A stretch of 50,588 bases of DNA from Alphaproteobacteria bacterium (GCA_015233585.1 JADFXL010000002.1:1-50588), one strand, 5' to 3'; shown: positions 13,206 to 25,314, counted from the first letter of the stretch. Made by a program: numbers and translations. The notes: generated from the sequence alone by a model not told the origin.

Positions 13206-13970
13206 ATGAGGACAACCATACATTACCTCTTGCTGATCGCGATGCGTGACCGCTTCCTGGTTACGTTGGCCGGATTTTTGCTCCTGGCCGGGCTGGTGTC
13301 CCGGTTCATTGGCGACTCCGCCATCGTTGAAACCAATGCGGCAGCGCTGGCGTTTGCCGGGGCTGCCGTGCGGTTGATCCTGGTCGTCGGGGTGGTGCTG
13401 TTCGTTGCCGTTCACATTGGGCGCATGTACGACAACCGCGAGATGGAGGTTCTGCTGTCGCGTCCGTTGTCACGCCCGCAAGTCATCCTCGGGCTGTTTC
13501 TGGGCTTTTTCGCGGTCGCCCTGTTGCTGGCGGGACTGGCGGTGGCGGCGGTCCTCATTGCCGGCCAGCCGGTTCCCGCCGGACTGCTCCTGTGGGGCGC
13601 AAGCTTGGTGGGAGAAACGGCAATCATGACGGGGGTTTCCGTGTATTTCACTCTGGTGCTGCGCGGCACGATTACGGCGGCTCTGATTTCGCTGGCGTTT
13701 TATGTTCTGGCGCGCCTGATCGGTCTGATGCTGGGGATGGCCGCTGGCAAACTGGCCCTGGTGCATGGAATCGCAGGCCATTTCGAGGACGGGATGGTTA
13801 CCGCCGTGTCGGTTGCGGTGCCGCGCCTGGACTTGTTTGCCCAGACTCACTGGCTGGTATACGGACCTTCCGGGCGTGCCGTGGAATGGACGATTCTTGC
13901 CCAGACAGCGATTTACCCGCCACTGGTGCTGGCGGCGGCTGCCTATGATTTTCGACGGAGGAATCTGTAG
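13206..13970 (+). CDS. ABC-2-type transporter permease associated with pilus cluster
   Basis: 254-aa integral membrane protein with about six hydrophobic segments (VTLAGFLLLAGLVSRFI; AVRLILVVGVVLFVAV; GLFLGFFAVALLLAGLAVAAVLI; ASLVGETAIMTGVSVYFTLVL; ALISLAFYVLARLIGLMLG; a last one before YDFRRRNL). The MYDNREMEVLLSRPLSRPQ motif in the first cytoplasmic loop is the coupling region typical of ABC-2 permeases. The probable ATPase partner is encoded at 22347-23078, after nine genes of pilus machinery. Myxococcus pil clusters also contain an ABC transporter (PilGHI), so a role in pilus biogenesis is a reasonable inference. The start ATG at 13206 follows GAACAGGG. Confidence 0.75.
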   Translation: MRTTIHYLLLIAMRDRFLVTLAGFLLLAGLVSRFIGDSAIVETNAAALAFAGAAVRLILVVGVVLFVAVHIGRMYDNREMEVLLSRPLSRPQVILGLFLGFFAVALLLAGLAVAAVLIAGQPVPAGLLLWGASLVGETAIMTGVSVYFTLVLRGTITAALISLAFYVLARLIGLMLGMAAGKLALVHGIAGHFEDGMVTAVSVAVPRLDLFAQTHWLVYGPSGRAVEWTILAQTAIYPPLVLAAAAYDFRRRNL

Positions 13971-13972
13971 CC

Positions 13973-14677
13973 GTGCGCGCCAAGGCTGCTGAAATTGGGC
14001 TGTTGATGTCGTTAATGGTGTTGCAATTCGGGCTATGGTGGCAAGATCGTGGCCTCATGCCGCAGCTGAGCCTTCTGGACGAACCACCGAGCCGGGAAAT
14101 GGCGGCCGTCGCTTCGCTCGGGGACTTACAGTACTATTTTCGCTCCGCCATGCTGGATCTCCAGGAAGCGGGGGACACCGGGGGAAGGATGACGCCGCTG
14201 AAGGACTACGATTATGTCCGGGTGGGGCGCTGGCTGCGTTTCGTCAATAGCCTGGACCGACGTTCCGAACATCCGGCCGCCCTGGCTGCGGGCTATTTTG
14301 GCGCAACCCAGAACCCGGCCATGCTGCCGCCCATCGTCGATTTCCTGGCCGACTATGGGGAACAGGATCCCTCGCGCAACTGGATATGGATGGTGAAGTC
14401 CTTCGATCTGGCCAAGCATCGCATGAAGGATCTCTCCCTTGCCTTGACCGTGGCTGAACGTCTGTCCGCCATCAGCGCCACCCATACGGATATTCCAGAC
14501 TGGCCACAGATTCTGCCCGCCTATACCCTGTTTGAAATGGGACGACGGGCGGAGTCCGGCCAGCGGCTGCACAGCGTTTTGGCCAAGGCGAAAAATCTGG
14601 ACAATAATGAATTGATGGGCATCCACTCGGTACTTGGCAAGATTCAAAAAACGCAGCGAGAAACCGGTTCAGAATGA
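13973..14677 (+). CDS. Membrane-anchored protein of unknown function in pilus cluster
   Basis: 234 aa starting at a GTG only 2 bp after the permease stop, so translation is coupled. Residues 6-23 form one hydrophobic segment (EIGLLMSLMVLQFGLWWQ) acting as an uncleaved anchor. The rest is soluble and mainly helical, with YDYVRVGRWLRFVNSLDR and a run of helices resembling a degenerate TPR solenoid (HPAALAAGYFGAT, PAYTLFEMGRRAESGQ). No family was recognised. Position between the ABC permease and the prepilins suggests a role with the transporter or in pilus assembly. Confidence 0.68.
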   Translation: MRAKAAEIGLLMSLMVLQFGLWWQDRGLMPQLSLLDEPPSREMAAVASLGDLQYYFRSAMLDLQEAGDTGGRMTPLKDYDYVRVGRWLRFVNSLDRRSEHPAALAAGYFGATQNPAMLPPIVDFLADYGEQDPSRNWIWMVKSFDLAKHRMKDLSLALTVAERLSAISATHTDIPDWPQILPAYTLFEMGRRAESGQRLHSVLAKAKNLDNNELMGIHSVLGKIQKTQRETGSE

Positions 14678-14718
14678 AGCAAACCGGTCATGGATATCGC
14701 AAGCACCAGGAGAAAAAT

Positions 14719-15528
14719 ATGTCCGAAGCAAAAGGTCCGATCGACGCCATAAAATCCCAGCGAGGCTTCACGCTGATTGAAATGGCGATTGTGCTCGTCA
14801 TCATCGGTCTGTTGCTGGGGGCTGTGCTCAAGGGCCAGCAGATGGTGGAAAATACGCGCGTCATCGCCACGGCCGCCGACTTCAATAACATTCGGGCTGC
14901 CGCCAACACCTTCCATGATCGCTATCAGACCCGGCCGGGCGACTTCAATAATGCAACCAAACAGTTGCCCACCAACCAGTATCCTACCATCGCTCCCGTT
15001 ATCGCAGATGGCGACGGCAACGGAATCATCGGGGCGGACATGGGCGCAAATCTTGGTGCAGCCATCAGTTACCCCACGGAGAATACCCAGTTCTGGATGC
15101 ATCTGCGCGTTGCGGGTCTGCTGGGCAAACCAAGACAAACCGGGATATCTTCCAATGCCTTGAACGAAGCAGCGGCGGTGTATGGTCAACTGATGCCGTC
15201 CGGCCGCTTCGGGGGTGGCTTCCATGTATTGTACGGCAATGACAACACCGGACGCTATACGCACTGGCTCCGTCTTGCCGCCGGTGGGGATATCGGCACC
15301 AGTATCCTGGGTACGAATGCGACGTTGGCGGCAACGCCGGCTCTGACCGCGAACGAAGCTTATGCCCTCGACCTGAAGATGGATGACGGCAATCCCTTTA
15401 CGGGCAGTGTTCAGGCTGGAAATACGGTCAAAGCCGGAGCCGGAGGTTGCGTCAGTACCACGACTCCGGTTTCCTACCTGCAAACCGACGATATCGGGTG
15501 CTGGATCATCTCCGACCTACAAATGTAA
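14719..15528 (+). CDS. Type IV prepilin-like protein 1
   Basis: 269-aa prepilin. The short leader (16 residues) ends at a prepilin peptidase site, QRG/FTLIE, with the conserved Glu5 of the mature protein, followed by the hydrophobic helix MAIVLVIIGLLLGAVLKGQ. The globular domain has a possible Ca2+ loop (DGDGNGIIG) and two C-terminal cysteines (GGCVS and IGCWIISDLQM) placed like the disulfide loop of type IV pilins. At about 250 mature residues it is large for a major pilin. The ATG at 14719 has AGGAG at good spacing; an earlier ATG at 14674 overlaps the previous gene. It is closely paralogous to the next gene. Confidence 0.9.
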   Translation: MSEAKGPIDAIKSQRGFTLIEMAIVLVIIGLLLGAVLKGQQMVENTRVIATAADFNNIRAAANTFHDRYQTRPGDFNNATKQLPTNQYPTIAPVIADGDGNGIIGADMGANLGAAISYPTENTQFWMHLRVAGLLGKPRQTGISSNALNEAAAVYGQLMPSGRFGGGFHVLYGNDNTGRYTHWLRLAAGGDIGTSILGTNATLAATPALTANEAYALDLKMDDGNPFTGSVQAGNTVKAGAGGCVSTTTPVSYLQTDDIGCWIISDLQM

Positions 15529-15558
15529 TGCCACACAGGAAATGTAATGCCACTCAGG
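15521..15558 (+). repeat. 19-bp tandem duplication across the stop of prepilin 1
   Basis: AAATGTAATGCCACACAGG (15521-15539) is followed directly by AAATGTAATGCCACTCAGG (15540-15558), 18 of 19 identical. The TAA stop of prepilin 1 lies in the first copy. It looks like a recent slippage duplication. Confidence 0.85.
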
Positions 15559-15647
15559 CGAATTTGGGGGCAAGTTCATAAATGCCGCTGGTATTTGGTT
15601 TCGAGTGTCGTTAATTCGCCACTCAAATTGCAGTCAGGGAGAGTGAC

Positions 15648-16487
15648 GTGACCGAACTAAAGAGCCAAACCGATGCCATGAAAAATCAGCGGGGCTTCAC
15701 GCTGGTGGAACTGGCGATCGTGCTCGTCATCATCGGCCTGTTGCTGGGCGCCGTGCTCAAAGGCCAACAGATGGTGGAGAATACGCGGGTGATTGCCACG
15801 GCTGCCGACTTTAATAATATCCGTGCTGCGACCAACAATTTTCGCGACCGCTACCAGGCTTGGCCGGGCGACTTCAACAACGCGACCACGCAACTGCCTA
15901 CCGCCCAATATCCCAACATTACCGTGCAGGACGGAGACGGCAACGGAATCATCGGGTTGAACCACGTCTCCCTGGGGGTTGCCCTCACCGATACCCCTGC
16001 CACGGATGGAGAAAATTTCGGGTTCTGGCGGCATCTGCGCGTCGCGGGCCTGCTTAACAAGCCACGCCAGGCGTCCAACACGCAATCCTTGACGGCCCCA
16101 GGCACGGGCGCGGGCGCGGCGGCGGAAAATTCCCCGGTGTATGGGGAGTTATTGCCCGCAGGCCGCTTCGGTGGCGGCTTCAGTGTGCTATACGGCCTGG
16201 ATCTTTCCGGCAGCCGCCATACGCACTGGCTCCGCCTTGCTGCCGGTACCGGCCTCCTGGGCACGGATGCGACGGCGCCACCATCGGCGGCCCTGACCTC
16301 GAACGAGGCTTATGCCCTCGATCTGAAGATGGATGACGGCAATCCTTACACGGGACGTGTCCAGTCCGGGGCGGCAAACGACACCACCTGCGCGAGCACG
16401 GTCTACTCCTCCTCGACGGTCACGTCGGCAGCCTACAATCATTCTGACCAAATATCATGCTGGATCATCTCTGACTTGCAGATGTGA
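15648..16487 (+). CDS. Type IV prepilin-like protein 2
   Basis: 279-aa paralogue of prepilin 1, with near-identical N-terminal helix (FTLVELAIVLVIIGLLLGAV, LKGQQMVENTRVIATAADFNN) and the same C-terminal ending CWIISDLQM. The leader is again 16 residues ending in QRG. Differences concentrate in the middle: Ala/Gly-rich insert (APGTGAGAAAEN) and longer loops. The DGDGNGIIG loop and the paired C-terminal cysteines (TTCAS, ISCW) are kept. Start is GTG at 15648 preceded by AGGGAGAG. The two probably arose by gene duplication and may form a heteropolymer or act as major and minor subunits. Confidence 0.9.
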   Translation: MTELKSQTDAMKNQRGFTLVELAIVLVIIGLLLGAVLKGQQMVENTRVIATAADFNNIRAATNNFRDRYQAWPGDFNNATTQLPTAQYPNITVQDGDGNGIIGLNHVSLGVALTDTPATDGENFGFWRHLRVAGLLNKPRQASNTQSLTAPGTGAGAAAENSPVYGELLPAGRFGGGFSVLYGLDLSGSRHTHWLRLAAGTGLLGTDATAPPSAALTSNEAYALDLKMDDGNPYTGRVQSGAANDTTCASTVYSSSTVTSAAYNHSDQISCWIISDLQM

Positions 16488-16614
16488 GGTCGAGCCCAGG
16501 GGTGGGGCGTGCTCACGCAGGATAATGCGCTCCCTTGATGAACGACGCAGGCGCACGAATCGGCGGAATCTGCCCTAAACCGGGCGGATGACGACACACC
16601 AGCGGGGAATGACC

Positions 16615-18378
16615 ATGGCGAAGGCAAGTGCGGCGATGGAAGCGAAGGCAGCGGCAGCGGCCGGCGGCAACCGCATGGGCGACAAGCTGGTTGCGCTCGG
16701 CCTTATCACCACCGATCAGCTCGAAGTGGCGCTGCATGAGAAACGCCGTTCCAACAAGATGCTGGGCAATGTGCTGGTCGATCTGGGGTTCGTCGCCGAA
16801 GCCACGCTGACCGCCATTCTGGCGGAGCGCACCGGCAGCGAAAGCTTTGACCCGACCAGAGCGGTCATTGACCCCGCCATAGCGACCCGGTTGCCAAAGG
16901 AGGTGGCCGTGCGGCACAAGGTGCTGCTGATTGGCCTGGACCAGGGGACCGCTCATCTGGCCATGGCCGATCCCTATGACGTGCTGGCGCTGGATGTCGT
17001 GCGCCGCTATCTGCCCCCCGACACCGAAACGGTGCCGCTGGTGTGCCCGGAAAGCATTCTGTTCGATCTGGTCGATCGGGCCTATGGGGCGCAGCTTTCC
17101 ATCGACGGCATGTTGCGCGAGATCCAGACCGGGGAGTTCGACCCCACCAGTATCCAGAACGAACATGGCCGCTATCTGCACCCGGTGGTGCGTCTGATCA
17201 ACGCGCTGTTGCTGGATGCCGCCCGTCAGGGAGCATCGGACCTTCACTTCGAGCCGGAGGGCAACTTCATCCGTCTGCGGTATCGCATTGATGGCGTGAT
17301 GTTGCCGATCCGCGCTTTTCACGTTGATTACTGGGGGGCCATGTCGCAGCGCCTGAAGCTGATGTCCGGCATGAACATCGCCGAAACCCGAATGCCCCAG
17401 GATGGCCGCTTCACGCTGTTCGTCGCCAATCGCGAGGTGGATTTTCGCGTCAGCTCCATGCCGACCGTGTTCGGGGAAAACATCGTGCTGCGGGTTCTGG
17501 ATCACGTCAAGGCACTGCGGTCGCTCTCCGAGCTGGGGTTCAGCCCGCAGGCGCTCACGGCCATGGAACGCATGTTGCGTCGGCCGGAGGGCATCCTGGT
17601 TGTCACCGGCCCCACCGGCTCGGGCAAGACCACGACCCTGTACGCCATGCTGAACAAGATCAAGTCGGTGGAACTCAACATCAAGACCCTGGAGGATCCG
17701 GTCGAATACAAGCTGGGTCTGGTGCGTCAGACCCAGGTCCGCGAGGCCTCAGGCCTTACCTTCGCCGAGGGCATCCGGGCGATGCTGCGCCAGGATCCCG
17801 ATATCCTGTTCATCGGCGAGGTCCGCGATCCCGAGACGGCGCAAATGGCGCTGCGGGCCTCAATGACCGGGCACCAGGTGTTCTCCACCGTCCACACCAA
17901 CGACGCGGTGGGCGTGGTGGCCAGGCTCATAGATCTTGGAATGCCCATCGGCATGATGGCCGGCAACATCATCGGGTCAATGTCGCAACGGTTGACGCGC
18001 GTGCTGTGTGTTCATTGCAAGGAAATGGGACCGGCGACCGCCGAGGAATGCCAGCTTTTGGGCGTTGACCCCGCCCATCCTCCGGTCATCGGCCATGCGC
18101 GGCACGGCGGTTGTCCCGAATGCCGCCACACCGGCTACCGGGGCCGGGTCGCCATTGCCGAGGTCATCGAATTCACGCCCGAGATTGATGAACTGGTGGT
18201 CGCCGGGGCCACGCGCGGCGCCATTCTGGACATGGCGCGCCGGCAGGGGTTCATCAGCATTGTTGAGGATGGCATCGGAAAGGTGCTGGCGGGCGAGACC
18301 AGTGTGGCGGCGCTCTCCCGTGCGGTTCACCTGGTGGCGCGGAATACGCCCCCGAGTGGGGCACATCCCGCGAAATAA
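16615..18378 (+). CDS. pilB: Type IV pilus / type II secretion assembly ATPase (PilB/GspE)
   Basis: 587-aa hexameric motor ATPase powering pilin polymerisation at the inner membrane. The N-terminal GspE-type domain (GDKLVALGLITTDQL, GNVLVDLGFV) is followed by the N2 domain and the RecA-like core: Walker A GPTGSGKT at 332-339, Asp-box LEDPVEYK, Walker B ILFIGEVRDPETA, His-box STVHTNDA. A Cys4 zinc site (CVHCKE ... CPECRHTGYRGR) is typical of PilB/GspE and absent from PilT. The ATG at 16615 with GGGGA 6 nt upstream is preferred over 16588 and 16609. PilB and GspE cannot be told apart with certainty by sequence; the co-encoded PilT favours a pilus. Confidence 0.93.
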   Translation: MAKASAAMEAKAAAAAGGNRMGDKLVALGLITTDQLEVALHEKRRSNKMLGNVLVDLGFVAEATLTAILAERTGSESFDPTRAVIDPAIATRLPKEVAVRHKVLLIGLDQGTAHLAMADPYDVLALDVVRRYLPPDTETVPLVCPESILFDLVDRAYGAQLSIDGMLREIQTGEFDPTSIQNEHGRYLHPVVRLINALLLDAARQGASDLHFEPEGNFIRLRYRIDGVMLPIRAFHVDYWGAMSQRLKLMSGMNIAETRMPQDGRFTLFVANREVDFRVSSMPTVFGENIVLRVLDHVKALRSLSELGFSPQALTAMERMLRRPEGILVVTGPTGSGKTTTLYAMLNKIKSVELNIKTLEDPVEYKLGLVRQTQVREASGLTFAEGIRAMLRQDPDILFIGEVRDPETAQMALRASMTGHQVFSTVHTNDAVGVVARLIDLGMPIGMMAGNIIGSMSQRLTRVLCVHCKEMGPATAEECQLLGVDPAHPPVIGHARHGGCPECRHTGYRGRVAIAEVIEFTPEIDELVVAGATRGAILDMARRQGFISIVEDGIGKVLAGETSVAALSRAVHLVARNTPPSGAHPAK

Positions 18379-18396
18379 AGGAGAGGATAACGCAGA

Positions 18397-19608
18397 GTGC
18401 CACAGTATCTATACAGGGCCGTCAACGCCAATGGCCGGGTGGTGAAAGGGAGCGCCGCTGCCACCAGCGATATTGACCTTTATCAGCGCCTGCGCGACAT
18501 CGGCCTTGACCTCCTGTCGGCGAGGGAAGAGCGTCCGGCCTTTCAGTTTCTCACCCAGCTCCGGGGCGTACGAACCCGCGAGATGATCCAGCTCACCATC
18601 CATATGGCCGAGTTGAGCCGGGCCGGAGTTCCAGTCCTGGACGCCATCGCGGACGTGCGGGATTCGGTTGAATCTCCAAAACTGCGTACCGTGCTGGGGG
18701 AGATCCACCAGAAAGTAAGCGAGGGGACGATATTGTCAGCGGCGATCGGCGAGCATAAACGGATCTTTGACTTCGTGTTCGTGGTTCTGGTCAAGGCGGG
18801 CGAGCAGACGGGCGGCCTGACCGAATCCTTCGATCAGCTCACCCGGCATCTGAAATGGACCGATGTTTTGCACACGCGGATCAAAAAGGCGATCCGCTAT
18901 CCCCTTTTCAGCTTTCTGGCCACGCTCGGCGTCGTCTTCTTCATGATGTCGTATGTGGTTCCGCAACTGGTGAAATTTCTGCAATCCCAAAACATAGATC
19001 TACCCTATTATACAAGGGCGATGATCGCGACCTCGGAGTTCTTTGCGAATTACTGGTGGGCGGTGCTGGGCGTGGCCGTGGTCGGGGGCACGGCGGTGCC
19101 GATCCTGTACCGGCTGCACGAGGGGTTCGCCGAAGTCATCGACTATGCGATCCTCCGCACGCCGATGATCGGCAACATCGTCCGTAAAATTTCCCTGTCG
19201 CGCTTTTCGCATTTCTTTTCCGTCATGTTCAAAAGCGGCATTCCCCTGCTGGAGTGCCTTGAATCCTCGCAACAGGTGATCGGCAACCGGTCGCTTGGCG
19301 GTTCCCTGGCCCTGGTGCGCCAGACGGTACAGGCGGGAAGTCCCCTGTCGGAAGCCCTCAGTCACTCGGGCGAGTTTCCGCGTCTGGTGGTACGGATGGT
19401 CCGGGTTGGCGAGGGAACGGGCGACATCGGGGTCACGCTGCAACAGGTATCGGAGTTTTACGACCGCGATGTCGAAGACGCGGTAGACTCCCTGGTCCAG
19501 GCGTTGCAGCCGATCCTGACCGGCGTTGTCGGCCTGTTGATGGCATGGGTACTGTTGGCGACGATCGTGCCGATTTATGATAACCTCGCCAATCTTGGGG
19601 GAGGTTGA
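18397..19608 (+). CDS. pilC: Inner-membrane platform protein PilC/GspF
   Basis: 403 aa, standard length for PilC/GspF, the membrane platform on which the assembly ATPase acts. Two homologous GspF domains, each with LSRAGVPVLDAI-type (first) and FKSGIPLLECLE (second) motifs, and three transmembrane segments (FLATLGVVFFMMSYVVPQLV; YWWAVLGVAVVGGTAVPI; ILTGVVGLLMAWVLLATIVP). The opening YLYRAVNANGRVVKG is canonical. Start is GTG at 18397, after AAGGAGAGG. It follows pilB by 18 bp and is 3 bp ahead of the next gene, so this is one operon. Confidence 0.93.
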   Translation: MPQYLYRAVNANGRVVKGSAAATSDIDLYQRLRDIGLDLLSAREERPAFQFLTQLRGVRTREMIQLTIHMAELSRAGVPVLDAIADVRDSVESPKLRTVLGEIHQKVSEGTILSAAIGEHKRIFDFVFVVLVKAGEQTGGLTESFDQLTRHLKWTDVLHTRIKKAIRYPLFSFLATLGVVFFMMSYVVPQLVKFLQSQNIDLPYYTRAMIATSEFFANYWWAVLGVAVVGGTAVPILYRLHEGFAEVIDYAILRTPMIGNIVRKISLSRFSHFFSVMFKSGIPLLECLESSQQVIGNRSLGGSLALVRQTVQAGSPLSEALSHSGEFPRLVVRMVRVGEGTGDIGVTLQQVSEFYDRDVEDAVDSLVQALQPILTGVVGLLMAWVLLATIVPIYDNLANLGGG

Positions 19609-19611
19609 GCG

Positions 19612-21198
19612 ATGCGCAATGGTTTCGTCCTGCTGCTGGGTGACGAGGGGGCTCTGCTGGTGCGGATGCAGAGCGCCGCGTCCGTGTGGCAGGGGAAGTC
19701 CCCGTCCCCATCCAGCGTCGCAACCCAAGAGCTGTTGAAGGAACTGGCCGGCGCGCGCGGACTGCCGGTCCGGGTGTTGATCGACGTGCAGGACCAGTCC
19801 TACCGCCGGGAGACGATTCCCAGGGTAAACCGGTTCGACCGCGCGACGCTGATTCAGCTCCGGGCCAAGGCGTTGTATCCCGGCAATGCTCTGCGCGGCT
19901 TTATGGAATTGGGAGCCGTCAAGGGGCGTCGTGAGACCGAATATCTTTTTACCGGCCTGGATGCCGGGGGGGTGCTGGCCCAGTGGGAAGCGGCGCTGGC
20001 GCCCCATCACACGCGGTTTCGCACCGTCGCCCTGCTACCCATCGAGGGCATCCATCTCGTCGGCACCCTGGCAAAATCCATCGCCAGGGACAGGTCGAAG
20101 CGGAAGCCGCCTGCGGATCATCCGCCGCCGACCGGCCGCGAGTGGCAGTTGCTGGTCAGCCCGTCGGCCCTGGGCGGCTACCGTCAGATCGTGGTGCGCG
20201 ACGGCGAACTGACCTTTACGCGCATGACCACCGCCCGCTGGGGGGAAGACGATCCCGAGGCGGCCGCAGATACCATCGCCCGCGAGATCCGGGCCTCTCT
20301 CGGTTATCTGGGTCGTCTTGGCTTTATGCAAAACGACACCCTCAACCTGATCGTTCTGGGGTCGGCTCCGGTTGGCGCGGCCCTGGCCCGGCAAGAGTTG
20401 CCGTCACAGACGTTGACGACGCTGACGCCCTATGAAGCAGCCTACCGGCTGGGACTGGATTCCGCCATCGAACCGGGGGAACCCTTTGCCGATCTCCTGC
20501 ATGTGGAGGCCTTTGCCCGCAAGCCAGCGGCGCTGGTCAATCTCCGCAAATCGCGCACGACGTCCTTGGGAATTGAGAGTCCCAGCCGGCTGGCTTACCT
20601 GGCCTCCGTCGCCATGGGCGCCGCCGTGGTGGCGGCGATGGGCTATGGCGGCTATCTCGGTGTGAAGCTGATCAGCAAGCGGTCCCTCCCCGCCACCCAG
20701 GGAGCCACCCTGGCCAGCCAGGAAAAGCACCTTGCGGAAATTCGTGAGCAATTCACCAATAGCCCCGAACGCTACGAAGAGGTGGCAGGTACCGCGTGGA
20801 TCAGCGGCAAACAGGCGGAGCGGCAATATTCGCCGTTCCCGATCCTGGACCGGCTTGCCGGCGCGCTGGGCGAGGATGTCACACTCCTGAGCTTTGACTG
20901 GACCCAGAGAGGGCTTGCCGTCGATTCCGGGGCTCCACCAAAGCCCGCCGCCACGGCGCAGATCTTCGACACGATCACGGTAAGAGCCGAATTGCTGGGC
21001 ATGACAGGTAAAATCACCGAGTCGCAGCAGGCGGCAAAAGGGCTGCTGGCCCGGATTCAGGTGGCTTTCCCCGAATTCAACGTGACGGCGAGCAAAATGC
21101 CGCTCGAAAAAATTGCCTGCGAGGTCTTCGATGTCAATCGTCTTAAAAGCACGACAAATGCTCGGGCCGAGATGGAAATCTCGATGGCCAGGAAGTGA
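19612..21198 (+). CDS. PilM/PilN-type fusion (GspL-like) pilus assembly protein
   Basis: 528 aa. Residues about 1-320 resemble the actin-like cytoplasmic domain of PilM/GspL (GFVLLLGDEGALLVRM start; LLPIEGIHLVGTLA; LLVSPSALGGYRQIVVRDGELTFTRM; LGLDSAIEPGEP). One transmembrane helix follows at about 322-347 (LAYLASVAMGAAVVAAMGYGGY), then a periplasmic part beginning with a coiled coil (SQEKHLAEIREQF) and ending in a ferredoxin-like PilN/GspL domain. In most type IV pilus systems PilM and PilN are separate; GspL of type II secretion has this fused form. It recruits the assembly ATPase to the membrane. The assignment rests on topology and weak motif similarity. Confidence 0.72.
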   Translation: MRNGFVLLLGDEGALLVRMQSAASVWQGKSPSPSSVATQELLKELAGARGLPVRVLIDVQDQSYRRETIPRVNRFDRATLIQLRAKALYPGNALRGFMELGAVKGRRETEYLFTGLDAGGVLAQWEAALAPHHTRFRTVALLPIEGIHLVGTLAKSIARDRSKRKPPADHPPPTGREWQLLVSPSALGGYRQIVVRDGELTFTRMTTARWGEDDPEAAADTIAREIRASLGYLGRLGFMQNDTLNLIVLGSAPVGAALARQELPSQTLTTLTPYEAAYRLGLDSAIEPGEPFADLLHVEAFARKPAALVNLRKSRTTSLGIESPSRLAYLASVAMGAAVVAAMGYGGYLGVKLISKRSLPATQGATLASQEKHLAEIREQFTNSPERYEEVAGTAWISGKQAERQYSPFPILDRLAGALGEDVTLLSFDWTQRGLAVDSGAPPKPAATAQIFDTITVRAELLGMTGKITESQQAAKGLLARIQVAFPEFNVTASKMPLEKIACEVFDVNRLKSTTNARAEMEISMARK

Positions 21199-21907
21199 CG
21201 GGATCGACCGCGAACAACTGGCCCTCATGACACCCTTTTTTGCGGCCGTAGGGTTGACTCTGGTCGCTTTCGCCGGGTGGGAGTGGGCCATTCCGTCTCT
21301 GGACGAGGCGATAGCGGCTGTGGAAGCGAAATCCATGAGCATTCAGGTCAAGATCGACGAAACCGATAAGCAGATTGCCAATGTCAGCGGCAAGATCAAG
21401 TTCATTGCCGACAATCACGACCGCTATCAACAGATGCTGACCGGTGGCTACACCACGCAACAGGACCGCTTGCATAGCGGCAAGGCGATCCGGGAATTAG
21501 CCAAACAATTCCGGGTTTCGGCGCTCGATTTCAGCTTTGCGCCGGAAGTGCGGGAAAAGCTGCGGGACAATGCCCCATTCTCCCTCGCGCATACCCTGGT
21601 CGAGGTAACCGTTACCGGAGTGACCGACCTGGACGTGATCGCATTCGCCCAGGCCTTGCCAGCTGCATTTACCGGCTGGGCGCGCATCGAGGGCCTGTCT
21701 CTGATCAAATCCCATCCGGTGGAATTTGTTTCGATGACAGGCCCACCACGAAAAGACAGCAGCGACGCCCCCCAAACCAAAGAGGCAAGCGCGATTGTGG
21801 ACTTCCTGAAGCCTCCCCCATCCCTACAGCCGGGATTCGTCGACGGGAAAATCAAAATCGGCTGGTATGCGGTCGCACTCCCGGAAGCGAGGGGATGCAA
21901 GCCGTGA
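21131..21907 (+). CDS. PilO/GspM-like pilus assembly protein
   Basis: 258 aa with one N-terminal transmembrane helix (ALMTPFFAAVGLTLVAFAGW), a following coiled coil (AIAAVEAKSMSIQVKIDETDKQIANV) and a C-terminal domain with the alternating strand pattern of PilO/GspM (LVEVTVTGVTDLDVIAFAQAL, ARIEGLSL). It overlaps the previous gene by about 68 bp; the ATG at 21131 has GAGG upstream, and a start at 21113 is possible. PilO-type proteins pair with PilN in the alignment complex, which fits its position. Identification is by topology and context. Confidence 0.65.
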   Translation: MSIVLKARQMLGPRWKSRWPGSDGIDREQLALMTPFFAAVGLTLVAFAGWEWAIPSLDEAIAAVEAKSMSIQVKIDETDKQIANVSGKIKFIADNHDRYQQMLTGGYTTQQDRLHSGKAIRELAKQFRVSALDFSFAPEVREKLRDNAPFSLAHTLVEVTVTGVTDLDVIAFAQALPAAFTGWARIEGLSLIKSHPVEFVSMTGPPRKDSSDAPQTKEASAIVDFLKPPPSLQPGFVDGKIKIGWYAVALPEARGCKP

Positions 21908-22350
21908 GTCTGGTTTGGGTCATCCGGACCTGCGCTTGCCTCCTGGCCACCGGTTCCATCCCTGCGGCAATGGCCGCCGCCTTGGACGAGGGACCGCCAC
22001 GATCCTTGTTCCTGACCCCCGCCGAGCAGGGGACGGCGAATGCTTCCTATCAACACTATCATCGCGAACAACATTCCGAATTAAAGACCTTCCCGCCGGA
22101 TATGCGGATGGCTGGCCTCTCGGTGTATCCGGATGGCGACTGGAGCTTCTGGCTCAACGGCAAAATCGTAACGCCGCAGACCGTGCCTCCGTGGATCACG
22201 GTCAAGCGGGTTACCCGGCGCTATGTCGACCTGTACTGGAAAGGACCGAACGCCGGAAAAACAGCGTTCGTGCGATTGCGGCCAAATCAGACCTATCTCG
22301 GCAGTACCGGCATCGTTGTTGAGGGCCAGGTCGGAAACCAACTTCGATGA
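21895..22350 (+). CDS. Exported pilus-cluster protein, PilP/GspB-like
   Basis: 151 aa with a probable signal peptide (VWVIRTCACLLATGSIPAAMA). The mature domain has GLSVYPDGDWSFWLNGKIV, WITVKRVTRRYVDLYWKG and RLRPNQTYLG. The pattern of a small beta domain with a stated inner element and a ...V.L.W.G signature resembles the C-terminal domains of GspB and the HR domain of PilP/GspC. It overlaps the PilO-like gene by 13 bp and the ABC ATPase gene by 4 bp (ATGA), so it is part of the operon. It probably links the inner-membrane complex to the outer membrane; the family is not certain. Confidence 0.6.
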   Translation: MQAVSLVWVIRTCACLLATGSIPAAMAAALDEGPPRSLFLTPAEQGTANASYQHYHREQHSELKTFPPDMRMAGLSVYPDGDWSFWLNGKIVTPQTVPPWITVKRVTRRYVDLYWKGPNAGKTAFVRLRPNQTYLGSTGIVVEGQVGNQLR

Positions 22351-23078
22351 ACACCGGGGCCTGGCCGGTCGCGATCGAAAACCTGTCGGTCTGGTATGAC
22401 CGGCGCCGGGCGCTTGAGGAGGTGTCGGTGGCGGTGGCGCCGGGCGAAATTTTTGCCCTGGTCGGCCTGAATGGCGCTGGCAAGACAACGATAATCAAGG
22501 CGATGCTTGGGCTGATTGCCGCGACGGGGACGGTATCTCTGTGTGGTGTGGACCACCGCGACCCGGCTTCGCGCCGCGCGATTGTCTATCTCCCCGAGAA
22601 ATTCCAGCCATCCCCGTTGCTGAAGGGCTGGGAATTCCTGTCGCTGTCCCTGTCCTGTTTCAAGATGCCGCTGGATCGCGAGGCCGCACTATCGGTTGCA
22701 AATAATTTAGAATTCAATGTACAGGATCTGGGGCGGCGCATCGGTACGTACTCAAAGGGCATGATGCAGAAAGTCGGGCTGATGGCGGCCCTGCTCGTGC
22801 AAAGACCGCTGGTGATCCTGGACGAGCCAACCAGCGGCCTGGACCCACAGGCGCGACATCTCCTCAAGAACGCCTTGCGCGCCTATACGCAATCCGGCGG
22901 AACGGTGTTCTTCAGCTCCCACATTCTGGCGGATGTCGATGAAATTTGTCAGCGGATGGCGGTAATTCATGAGGGGCGGCTGCGGTTTTTGGGAACGCCG
23001 GAGGCTCTGAAGTCGGTTCATTCTGGTCAGACCCTGGAACGGGCGTTTCTGGCCGAGATTGGCAATGATGGAGAATGA
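22347..23078 (+). CDS. ABC transporter ATP-binding protein of pilus cluster
   Basis: 243-aa ABC ATPase: Walker A GLNGAGKTT near residue 40, Q-loop region VYLPEKFQPSPLL, signature YSKGMMQK, Walker B LVILDEPTSGLD, H-loop FFSSHILADVDE. The short, export-type form with DRR-type helical domain is typical of ABC-2 drug/polysaccharide exporters. The only permease gene nearby is the one at 13206, at the other end of the cluster, so they are likely partners. It overlaps its upstream neighbour by ATGA and ends immediately before pilT. PilH of Myxococcus is the closest functional analogy. Confidence 0.9.
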   Translation: MNTGAWPVAIENLSVWYDRRRALEEVSVAVAPGEIFALVGLNGAGKTTIIKAMLGLIAATGTVSLCGVDHRDPASRRAIVYLPEKFQPSPLLKGWEFLSLSLSCFKMPLDREAALSVANNLEFNVQDLGRRIGTYSKGMMQKVGLMAALLVQRPLVILDEPTSGLDPQARHLLKNALRAYTQSGGTVFFSSHILADVDEICQRMAVIHEGRLRFLGTPEALKSVHSGQTLERAFLAEIGNDGE

Positions 23079-23079
23079 C

Positions 23080-24144
23080 GTGCAGATTGCGGACTTATTG
23101 ACGATTGCGCTCCAGAACAAGGCGTCGGATCTGCATCTGACCTCCGATAGCCCTCCGATTCTGCGCCTGGATGGCTCGCTCAAGCCGATCGACATGGCGG
23201 TTCTGTCCTCGCTGGAAGCGCAGACCCTGATTGTATCGGTCATGACGGAGGCACAGCGAATCGAGTATGAGGCCGAGCGCGAGATCGACTTTGCGATCAG
23301 CTTTGGCGAAAAAGCCCGCTTCCGCGTCAACGCCTTCACCACCAACAAAGGGCCAGCCGCTGTTTTCCGAACCATTCCTACGGTAATTCCCACGCTGGCG
23401 GGCCTGAACGCGCCACGGATTTTCGAACGGTTGTCCGAATTGGAGAAGGGACTGGTTCTGGTGACCGGCCCGACCGGATCCGGCAAATCGACGACTCTGG
23501 CGGCGATGATCCACCATATCAATACGAAGTCCGATAAACATATCCTGACCATCGAAGACCCGATCGAATTCGTGCACCAATCCAGAACCAGCCTTGTCAA
23601 CCACCGCGAGGTCGGCAAACACACCAAATCCTTCGCCCGAGCGTTGAAAAGCGCCTTGCGGGAAGACCCGGATGTCATCCTGGTCGGAGAAATGCGGGAT
23701 CACGAGACCATCAGTCTGGCCCTGACCGCCGCCGAGACCGGCCACCTGGTGATGGGAACGCTGCATACCAGTTCGGCGGCAAAAACCATCGACCGCATCA
23801 TCGACGTATTCCCCACCGGTGACAAGGAAATGGTCCGGGCGATGCTGGCCGGATCGTTACAGGCGGTAATCGCCCAGGTGCTGTTGCCCCGCATCGGTGG
23901 TGGCCGGATCGCAGCTCACGAGGTTCTGATCGGCACTCCGGCCGTCCGCAATCTCATTCGCGACAACAAAGTGCCCCAGATTTATTCGATGATGCAGGTC
24001 GGCTCGCAATTCGGAATGCAGACCTTGGAAGAGGCCCTTGACGCCGTCGTGAACCAGGGACTGGTCGACCGCAAGCAGGCCCAGCGTTATCAGCCAACGC
24101 CCAGCAAGGAATCGGGGCCGGTCAGCAAGGGGGTTAGCTGGTGA
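23080..24144 (+). CDS. pilT: Type IV pilus retraction ATPase PilT
   Basis: 354 aa (to 358 with alternative starts). Retraction motor that depolymerises pili. PAS-like N-terminal domain (ASDLHLTSDSPPILRLDG), Walker A GPTGSGKST, Walker B VILVGEMRDHETI, His-box GTLHTSSA, and the PilT-specific AVRNLIRDNK followed by QFGMQTLEEAL. No Cys4 zinc site, as expected. The GTG at 23080 sits 6 nt after GGAG, just past the ABC ATPase stop, and gives the family-typical short N terminus; ATGs at 23065 and 23068 inside the preceding gene are possible. Its presence distinguishes this cluster from a pure type II secretion system. Confidence 0.94.
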   Translation: MQIADLLTIALQNKASDLHLTSDSPPILRLDGSLKPIDMAVLSSLEAQTLIVSVMTEAQRIEYEAEREIDFAISFGEKARFRVNAFTTNKGPAAVFRTIPTVIPTLAGLNAPRIFERLSELEKGLVLVTGPTGSGKSTTLAAMIHHINTKSDKHILTIEDPIEFVHQSRTSLVNHREVGKHTKSFARALKSALREDPDVILVGEMRDHETISLALTAAETGHLVMGTLHTSSAAKTIDRIIDVFPTGDKEMVRAMLAGSLQAVIAQVLLPRIGGGRIAAHEVLIGTPAVRNLIRDNKVPQIYSMMQVGSQFGMQTLEEALDAVVNQGLVDRKQAQRYQPTPSKESGPVSKGVSW

Positions 24145-24711
24145 TCAATCGACAAGGTGCTGGGATTTGATCTCGTACCAGGAACGGACGACCTTGAACA
24201 GATACTTGGATTGCCGGTTCGGATCGTCGGAATGGTAATGGGAGACAGCGCTACGCCACGTACCGTACTGGTGCAGCAATTGCCCCAGAAACGTGGCGGC
24301 GTAGTCGACATTGGCGGCCGGGTCAAAAGCCTGTTCAATGGTTTTGAATGCGGTGGGATGATGCTTGAGATTGACTTGCATACAACCAACGTCGATAGAC
24401 CGAACGTTGTTGTTAAGCAGGTATTTCACGACGGCGACAGCGGTTGCCTTGGTTTCAAACTGAAAGCCGTGGCCGTGAACGTTGATGGACCACGGCCACG
24501 CGACCTTGAGCTTCCTGACCGGCAACTTGCGGCCGCTCTCGGTTCGGGCGATGGAGGTCAGCATCAGGTGGGGATAATTCCGGGCACGCTCCTGCTTCAG
24601 GGTTTCCAATTCGCAGGCGAACGTTATTGAGCTTGCCGCTGAGGCGGGATGAATGACAAACAGGTGAGCCACGGCGGAAATACCAGCGGAAAACCTGATA
24701 AAATGCTTCAT
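24145..24711 (-). CDS. Exported lytic transglycosylase
   Basis: 188 aa with a signal peptide (cleavage near ASA-A at about residue 26). The SLT-type fold is clear: IARTESGR with the catalytic Glu, WPWSINVHGHGFQF, SIDVGCMQVNLKHH, FDPAANVDYAATFL and GTWRSAVSHYHS. It cleaves peptidoglycan and may open the wall locally for the pilus. It is convergent with pilT and the two stop codons abut exactly (24144/24145), with no room for a terminator between. It is not in the same transcription unit, but the position next to the pilus genes suggests linkage. Confidence 0.88.
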   Translation of the reverse strand: MKHFIRFSAGISAVAHLFVIHPASAASSITFACELETLKQERARNYPHLMLTSIARTESGRKLPVRKLKVAWPWSINVHGHGFQFETKATAVAVVKYLLNNNVRSIDVGCMQVNLKHHPTAFKTIEQAFDPAANVDYAATFLGQLLHQYGTWRSAVSHYHSDDPNRQSKYLFKVVRSWYEIKSQHLVD

Positions 24712-24876: not shown

Positions 24877-25314
24877 TTACTCTAAAGAGATGTTGGTTTC
24901 GTTCTCCGAACGTTTGCCGTCAGTGTGACCATCGATATAGGCGAGGATGATGTCATCAGTAACGTTACCGCTGGTGGTACTGAAGAATCCACGCCCCCAG
25001 AAGTGACGACCCCAATAGCGTTTTCCGATGTGCGGAAACTCCAGTTGGATCTTTCGCGAAGAACGGCCCTTGGCGTTCTTAACGAATTCACTGACGGCAA
25101 TGTGTGGCGGAATTTCAGCAAAGATATGTACGTGATCCACCGAAAGCACGCCATTAACGATACGAATACCCATCTCGTCGGCTACCTGGGCGATGATCGT
25201 GCGCACCCGCAGCCGCAGATCGCCTTGCAAAACTGGGTACCGGTATTTCGTAATCCACACCAGATGATACCTGTGGTGGAAAACCGTATGTGAACCCTTG
25301 CTGTACTCTGTCAT
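24877..25314 (-). CDS. tnpA: IS200/IS605 transposase TnpA (Y1 HUH)
   Basis: 145 aa, the usual size. The HUH metal motif is DHVHIF; the catalytic tyrosine is in ILAYIDGH near the C terminus. Other family blocks: YHLVWITKYRYPVL near residue 20, KGRSSRKIQLEFP and KRYWGRHFWGRGFFSTTSGNVTDD. The enzyme cuts and joins single-stranded DNA at the element ends. The gene looks intact. Its first codons (ATG ACA GAG) lie within one arm of a 23-bp perfect inverted repeat, and no good ribosome binding site precedes the ATG, so translation is probably repressed by the stem. Confidence 0.95.
   Translation of the reverse strand: MTEYSKGSHTVFHHRYHLVWITKYRYPVLQGDLRLRVRTIIAQVADEMGIRIVNGVLSVDHVHIFAEIPPHIAVSEFVKNAKGRSSRKIQLEFPHIGKRYWGRHFWGRGFFSTTSGNVTDDIILAYIDGHTDGKRSENETNISLE

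Follow-up and report, generated by a model that had tools for sequence, protein, structure and literature searches.

Why would the two halves of an ATP-binding cassette (ABC) transporter be encoded at opposite ends of a type IV pilus cluster? The question is raised by positions 13206 to 24144 of a 50,588-nt stretch of DNA from an Alphaproteobacteria bacterium (GCA_015233585.1, JADFXL010000002.1:1-50588), analysed here at its full length and hereafter called the window. Eleven genes, all on the plus strand, run there in the order ABC-2 permease, a membrane protein with helical repeats, two prepilins, PilB, PilC, a PilM/PilN fusion, PilO-like and PilP-like proteins, ABC ATPase and PilT. An earlier note on this DNA had given the same order with start/stop overlaps through much of it, and the coordinates of the open reading frames (ORFs) bear this out. 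We find that the cluster very probably encodes a type IVa pilus with an integral module of the PilG-PilH-PilI type. The machine itself is a known one, a retractable type IVa pilus, here with its PilGHI module split.

Comparison with the Myxococcus PilGHI proteins

The first gene (13206..13970, 254 aa) matched the general ABC-2 family models only below cut-off (E 1e-3). Against myxobacterial PilI, the profile-profile comparison with hhalign reached 99.5% (E 8e-23) over 248 columns, covering the whole length, and nine control pairs compared profile to profile gave 0.5% at most. Given the 39 homologous permeases in the fetched loci together with the PilI profile match, the identity of the permease is secure despite its sub-threshold family match. 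A hidden Markov model (HMM) of PilI found the window permease at 1.9e-7 and 36 of the 39 permeases at E < 0.002; it also matched two ordinary ABC-2 permeases (L046 and L047, at 2e-4 and 6e-4), so that a weak single match to this model is unspecific. A tblastn search of plasmids with the permease returned no matches.

The second gene (13973..14677, 234 aa), only 2 nt downstream, matched no family model and had been described as an unknown membrane protein. The membrane part of that description stands, with one transmembrane helix; the protein is no longer unknown, since its helical-repeat profile aligned with PilG over 202 columns (hhalign 96.4%, E 1e-9). Its AlphaFold model, with a predicted local distance difference test score (pLDDT) of 78, consists of one N-terminal helix and a helical solenoid, for which the best fold matches in the PDB are TPR proteins with weak E-values; three members of the PilG alignment match Pfam TPR models. 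Judged by these profiles, the permease is a PilI homologue and its neighbour a PilG homologue. In one 1.7 Mb genome (G530) the two are joined in a single 386-residue ORF (L106:12403-13563, minus strand), with the permease match at residues 5-207 and the PilG-like match at 290-384, a fusion of which an assembly frameshift may be the source.

The myxobacterial loci used for comparison were fetched with a Myxococcus-like PilA query, and only the fetched sequences entered the comparisons. The named loci come from Pyxidicoccus, Archangium, other Myxococcota, Nitrospirota, Desulfobacula and Zetaproteobacteria, and in ten of them PilH is followed by PilI, mostly with PilG ahead. With the type IVa cluster pilA-pilG-pilH-pilI of M. 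xanthus (MXAN_5783-5780) the window shares homologous PilI and PilG, an ATPase of the same broad group and linkage to PilA, PilB, PilC, PilT and PilMNOP; the comparison with Myxococcus PilGHI drawn in the earlier note is correct at the level of homology. The arrangement differs. PilG, PilH and PilI lie contiguously behind the pilin in those loci of Myxococcota, Nitrospirota and Desulfobacula that were read, whereas in the window PilH ends the run from PilB to PilP and starts ~7.7 kb downstream of PilG, so that the three-gene contiguity beside pilA, usual but inessential to membership, is lacking. PilM and PilN are moreover fused, the secretin and PilD are unlinked, and the PilG-like protein has no counterpart of the C-terminal extension found in most PilG.

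The ABC ATPase (22347..23078, 243 aa) gave a family match of 86.6 bits, with GldA among the top families. In a tree of 60 ATPases, including paralogs of the same genomes, the 19 from pilus loci formed one clade (Shimodaira-Hasegawa-like approximate likelihood ratio test, SH-aLRT, 99) that excluded the same-genome paralogs; two more rows labelled as cluster, L046 and L047, come from ordinary ABC loci and are placed outside this clade. We call the protein PilH-like on the strength of this clade and the family match. The GldA-GldF-GldG proteins of Bacteroidota gliding, whose GldA is the match just named, also make up an ABC module linked to movement over surfaces, but in a different machine; the comparison covered the ATPase.

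Gene order and co-inheritance in relatives

Relatives were collected by a PilMN search of 150 genomes of the order, which led to seven other genomes, and by a permease search of 61 relatives, which led to nine others, two of them weak. Their gene order is secretin, permease, PilG-like gene, in some an AraC regulator, pilin(s), in some a GT41 glycosyltransferase gene, PilB, PilC, PilMN, PilO, PilP and ABC ATPase, with PilT converging or nearby; loci such as L037, L040, L020 and L019 thus carry the same genes in the same split order as the window, the difference being a secretin directly ahead of the permease where the window has its secretin on another contig. A script placed the permease and the PilG-like gene side by side at 35 of the 39 loci with a permease, a count that the reading of two overlapping ORFs raised to 37; the secretin stands directly ahead of the permease in 19 loci, and the ATPase directly follows PilP or PilO in 22, split ones included. 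Among the alphaproteobacterial loci recovered, the bracketed layout is the normal one and no peculiarity of the window genome, though only about 3-4% of the sampled genomes of the class have the system.

In five cases the permease and the ATPase are found on separate loci or contigs (L096/L247, L098/L248, L093/L249, L100/L252 and L103/L246). The permease and the PilG-like gene stay together in these pairs, preceded by the secretin in three, and the ATPase travels with the run from PilC or PilB to PilP. One family (L243-L245 with L101, L102 and L104) has a contiguous set that starts at PilB and continues with PilC, PilMN, PilO, PilP, ATPase, PilT, a PilT-like gene, secretin, permease, PilG-like gene and pilin. 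Taken with the split loci, this contiguous set makes the layout of the window look like one cut of a conserved order. The synteny comparison proposed in the earlier note accordingly shows the ABC genes holding fixed places in the pilus locus: no relative has the permease beside a different ATPase partner, and the split loci keep their ABC genes.

The strongest evidence that the permease and the ATPase of the window are partners comes from another class of the same phylum, about thirty genomes of which are also matched by the PilG-like profile. Permease, PilG-like gene, pilin and ATPase are contiguous there in L115, L117 and L118, and in L109 the ATPase, PilG-like and permease genes directly overlap. 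Across a sample of 385 genomes of the window's own class, with the ATPase profile threshold set above the class paralogs, the permease profile was found in 14 genomes and the ATPase profile in 12, 11 being common to both (Fisher p 7e-18). Distance matrices from 22 loci correlate at 0.89 for permease and ATPase, 0.88 for permease and PilC and 0.85 for ATPase and PilC, values reached in none of 2000 permutations. The permease, PilG-like and ATPase genes are shown to be inherited together and with the pilus genes, in fixed places of the locus; the partnership of the separated permease and ATPase, as the earlier note had it, is upheld by linkage, co-occurrence, the single ATPase clade and the contiguity in the other class.

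Several observations weigh against taking the module as an integral part of the pilus. An 88%-complete genome (G024) has PilB-PilC-PilMN-PilO-PilP and then the secretin (L022:13962-17278, L021), with no ABC gene in this locus and no permease found in the genome, which means that the module is not obligatory, and the genome with the PilI-PilG fusion has no recognisable PilH; pilus loci without the full module are therefore found in two genomes, and the module is not universal. The correlations of the distance matrices partly reflect shared species history. The ATPase tree leaves it undecided whether Myxococcus PilH is the closest sister of the 19-member clade. Finally, the statement that PilG/H/I are essential for pilin translocation (PMC3724824) is a second-hand one.

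Minor irregularities were also seen. A second, lone permease occurs in G473 (L099); among fragmented assemblies, G507 and G398 have a permease without a clear PilH, and in G483 a PilH was found but no permease. Several genomes of the other class, e.g. G583, G637 and G694, carry two PilG-like copies on separate contigs, which suggests two pilus systems. An AraC-type regulator lies within the pilus cluster of one relative (L017:1931-3064), and its sister genomes have ORFs of similar size in the equivalent position.

Possible roles of the ABC module

What might such a module do? The pilA, pilG, pilH and pilI genes of M. xanthus make up a single operon (PMC3546991), and a pilGHI deletion abolishes S-motility, which complementation restores (PMC5544727). 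A Walker A allele of pilB (pilB-WA) restores exopolysaccharide in the pilG, pilH and pilI deletions as it does in the pilA deletion, and not in deletions of pilC, pilM, pilN, pilO, pilP or pilQ (PMC3724824), a bypass pattern that assigns PilGHI to the supply of pilin and not to the core scaffold. Through homology to these proteins, we tentatively suggest that the module of the window may act on pilin supply, a reading to which we give somewhat less than an even chance. PilI and PilH subunits would form an ABC-2 complex in the inner membrane, and PilG would be bound to it by its single transmembrane helix, with the TPR-like solenoid reaching into the periplasm. The complex could spend ATP on handing mature pilin, or some small factor required by pilin, over to the PilC/PilMNO platform; PilB would then polymerise the pilin and PilT depolymerise it. 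The secretin and PilD are supplied from elsewhere in the genome.

More speculative still is the idea that PilG-PilH-PilI is a third engine driven by ATP in type IVa pili, widespread but overlooked beside PilB and PilT: an ABC-2 complex that may load or extract pilin at the platform. Such an engine, tied to the alignment complex, would cover Alphaproteobacteria, the other class of their phylum, Myxococcota, Nitrospirota and Desulfobacterota. PilGHI has so far been treated as a peculiarity of Myxococcus; a 2018 survey identified it outside this genus largely through general ABC homology (PMC6060248), and, as judged by a term search, neither a survey of type IV filaments (PMC6668835) nor an assembly review (PMC10191384) mentions an ABC transporter. 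Nothing relevant came out of literature searches for type IVa clusters of Alphaproteobacteria that include an ABC transporter, and both the alphaproteobacterial layout and the extent of the module appear to be undescribed in searchable papers. With a homologous permease and accessory subunits locked into the pilus loci of distant bacteria, and the ATPase co-encoded with the alignment genes, an old genetic observation becomes a general question, the role of an ABC transporter in pilus assembly, for which systems outside Myxococcus and a natural PilI-PilG fusion are now on hand.

Export of a glycan or lipid is a serious rival to pilin supply, even if on balance we think it unlikely. The transporter would belong to the pilus locus and export a decoration of the pilus or of the cell surface, be it a sugar, a lipid or a peptide. 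ABC-2 permeases and DrrA/NodI-like ATPases, the kind to which the ATPase matches point, usually export small molecules, lipids or glycans. A gene with TPR and GT41 (O-GlcNAc-transferase-like) domains between pilin and PilB in one family of relatives, f4 (L017:4073-6736, with similar-sized ORFs in L015, L016 and L019), hints that pilin is glycosylated there and brings glycosylation within reach. This gene is, however, absent from the window and from most other loci, the cluster contains no recognisable polysaccharide polymerase, and the ATPase, judged by its length, lacks the extra C-terminal domain of Wzt-type exporters; the linkage to pilus genes also spans many families with different neighbours.

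A mechanical role for the complex, in the manner of FtsEX or MacB, is improbable, though it deserves mention: ATP binding by PilH would bend the PilG solenoid and so open or time PilMNOP and the secretin, with nothing transported. The predicted single transmembrane helix and periplasmic solenoid of PilG would fit such a device, as would the encoding of PilH with PilMNOP-like genes and of PilI-PilG with the secretin, but the permease belongs to the ABC-2 exporter family and not to that of FtsX or MacB.

A type II secretion-like machine with PilT added is very unlikely, and the evidence on it lies in the alignment proteins, which run as PilM/PilN fusion (19612..21198, 528 aa), PilO-like (21158..21907, start uncertain, as the ORF opens at 21113) and PilP-like periplasmic protein (21895..22350). 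The fusion and the small periplasmic protein recall the GspL/GspB layout, and PilB carries MshEN. None of the three matched a family model, a phmmer search of the PDB with PilMN returned nothing, and neither did an initial scan of the genome contigs with it. The C-terminal half of PilMN did match PilN, weakly against the M. xanthus protein of PDB 3jc8 (E 0.006) and at 65% (E 6e-5) against the myxobacterial PilN profile; the PilO-like protein gave a weak 44% against PilO, and the alignment of the PilP-like protein contains the conserved motifs Wx2WxNG and LxPxQT. The positions and order of these proteins fit a type IVa pilus, and their names rest on position and relatives and, for PilN and PilO, on these weak matches; PilM and PilP are unmatched by sequence, and the PilM half is assigned by position only. 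With E. coli comparators, GspL reached 0.5% against the C-terminal half of PilMN and GspB 0.2% against the PilP-like protein, and GspL, GspM, GspC and GspB all stayed at or below 0.5% against both proteins, a weak negative, since each comparator is one sequence only. The claim of GspL-like and GspB-like traits in the earlier note is not sustained by this test: the C-terminal half of the fusion resembles PilN instead of GspL, and similarity to GspB, as to GspC, is absent. Together with a PilT above its cut-off and large duplicated prepilins, this led us to reject a type II secretion system; a Tad pilus was rejected because the cluster carries PilB, PilC and PilT.

That an ordinary ABC exporter lies beside the pilus genes by chance is hardly credible, for although ABC ATPases are numerous and the permease falls below Pfam cut-offs, the conserved placement, the co-occurrence (p about 7e-18), the single ATPase clade and the homology to PilG and PilI all speak against it.

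Other pilus genes and surroundings of the cluster

The rest of the cluster supports its assignment to a retractable type IVa pilus. Both class III prepilins (14719..15528 and 15648..16487), paralogues of each other, gave firm N_methyl matches; the extension ATPase PilB (16588..18378) matched T2SSE at 402 bits along with MshEN (Pfam/NCBIfam), and the platform protein PilC (18397..19608) matched T2SSF at 171 bits. The retraction ATPase PilT (23059..24144), which the earlier note had singled out as a pilus trait, scored 465 bits against TIGR01420, well above the cut-off of 319. Spacing is tight: PilC and PilMN are 3 nt apart, PilO and PilP overlap by 13 nt, PilP and the ATPase by 4 nt, and the ATPase and PilT overlap as well. 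A script check across loci found PilH directly followed by PilT on the same strand in the window only, so this junction is no conserved feature.

The source genome is a draft metagenome-assembled genome of 3.3 Mb in 435 contigs, 80% complete. The cluster contains no secretin or PilD gene, as had been noted, but the genome does: three secretins and two prepilin peptidases, the latter on C355 and C11, were found on other contigs in the genome search that the earlier note had called for. An HMM built from the relatives' secretins that adjoin the permease scored 654 bits with C391:41999-44023, and 54 and 71 with the remaining two, so the secretin of the cluster is unlinked, not absent. This gene (L024:15000-17024) stands by itself, flanked by polA and an integrase-core transposase gene. 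The secretin and prepilin peptidase that a type IVa pilus requires are both present, in unlinked form.

A different secretin with its own peptidase is located on C11. The peptidase of C355 belongs to a neighbourhood with a secretin and a prepilin-like gene, adjoined by a Ser/Thr kinase fused to an FGE-sulfatase domain (L023:15165-16709), apparently a separate secretion or pilus locus.

Around the cluster, the translations read as genes of glycine cleavage on the upstream side and biotin genes on the downstream side; these appear to be housekeeping flanks. A small lipoprotein-like gene lies directly upstream of the cluster. An SLT lytic transglycosylase with weak VirB1 similarity (24145-24711, minus strand) converges on PilT and could open peptidoglycan for the pilus, and an IS200-type transposase (Y1_Tnp; 24877-25314, minus strand) is found immediately past the cluster.

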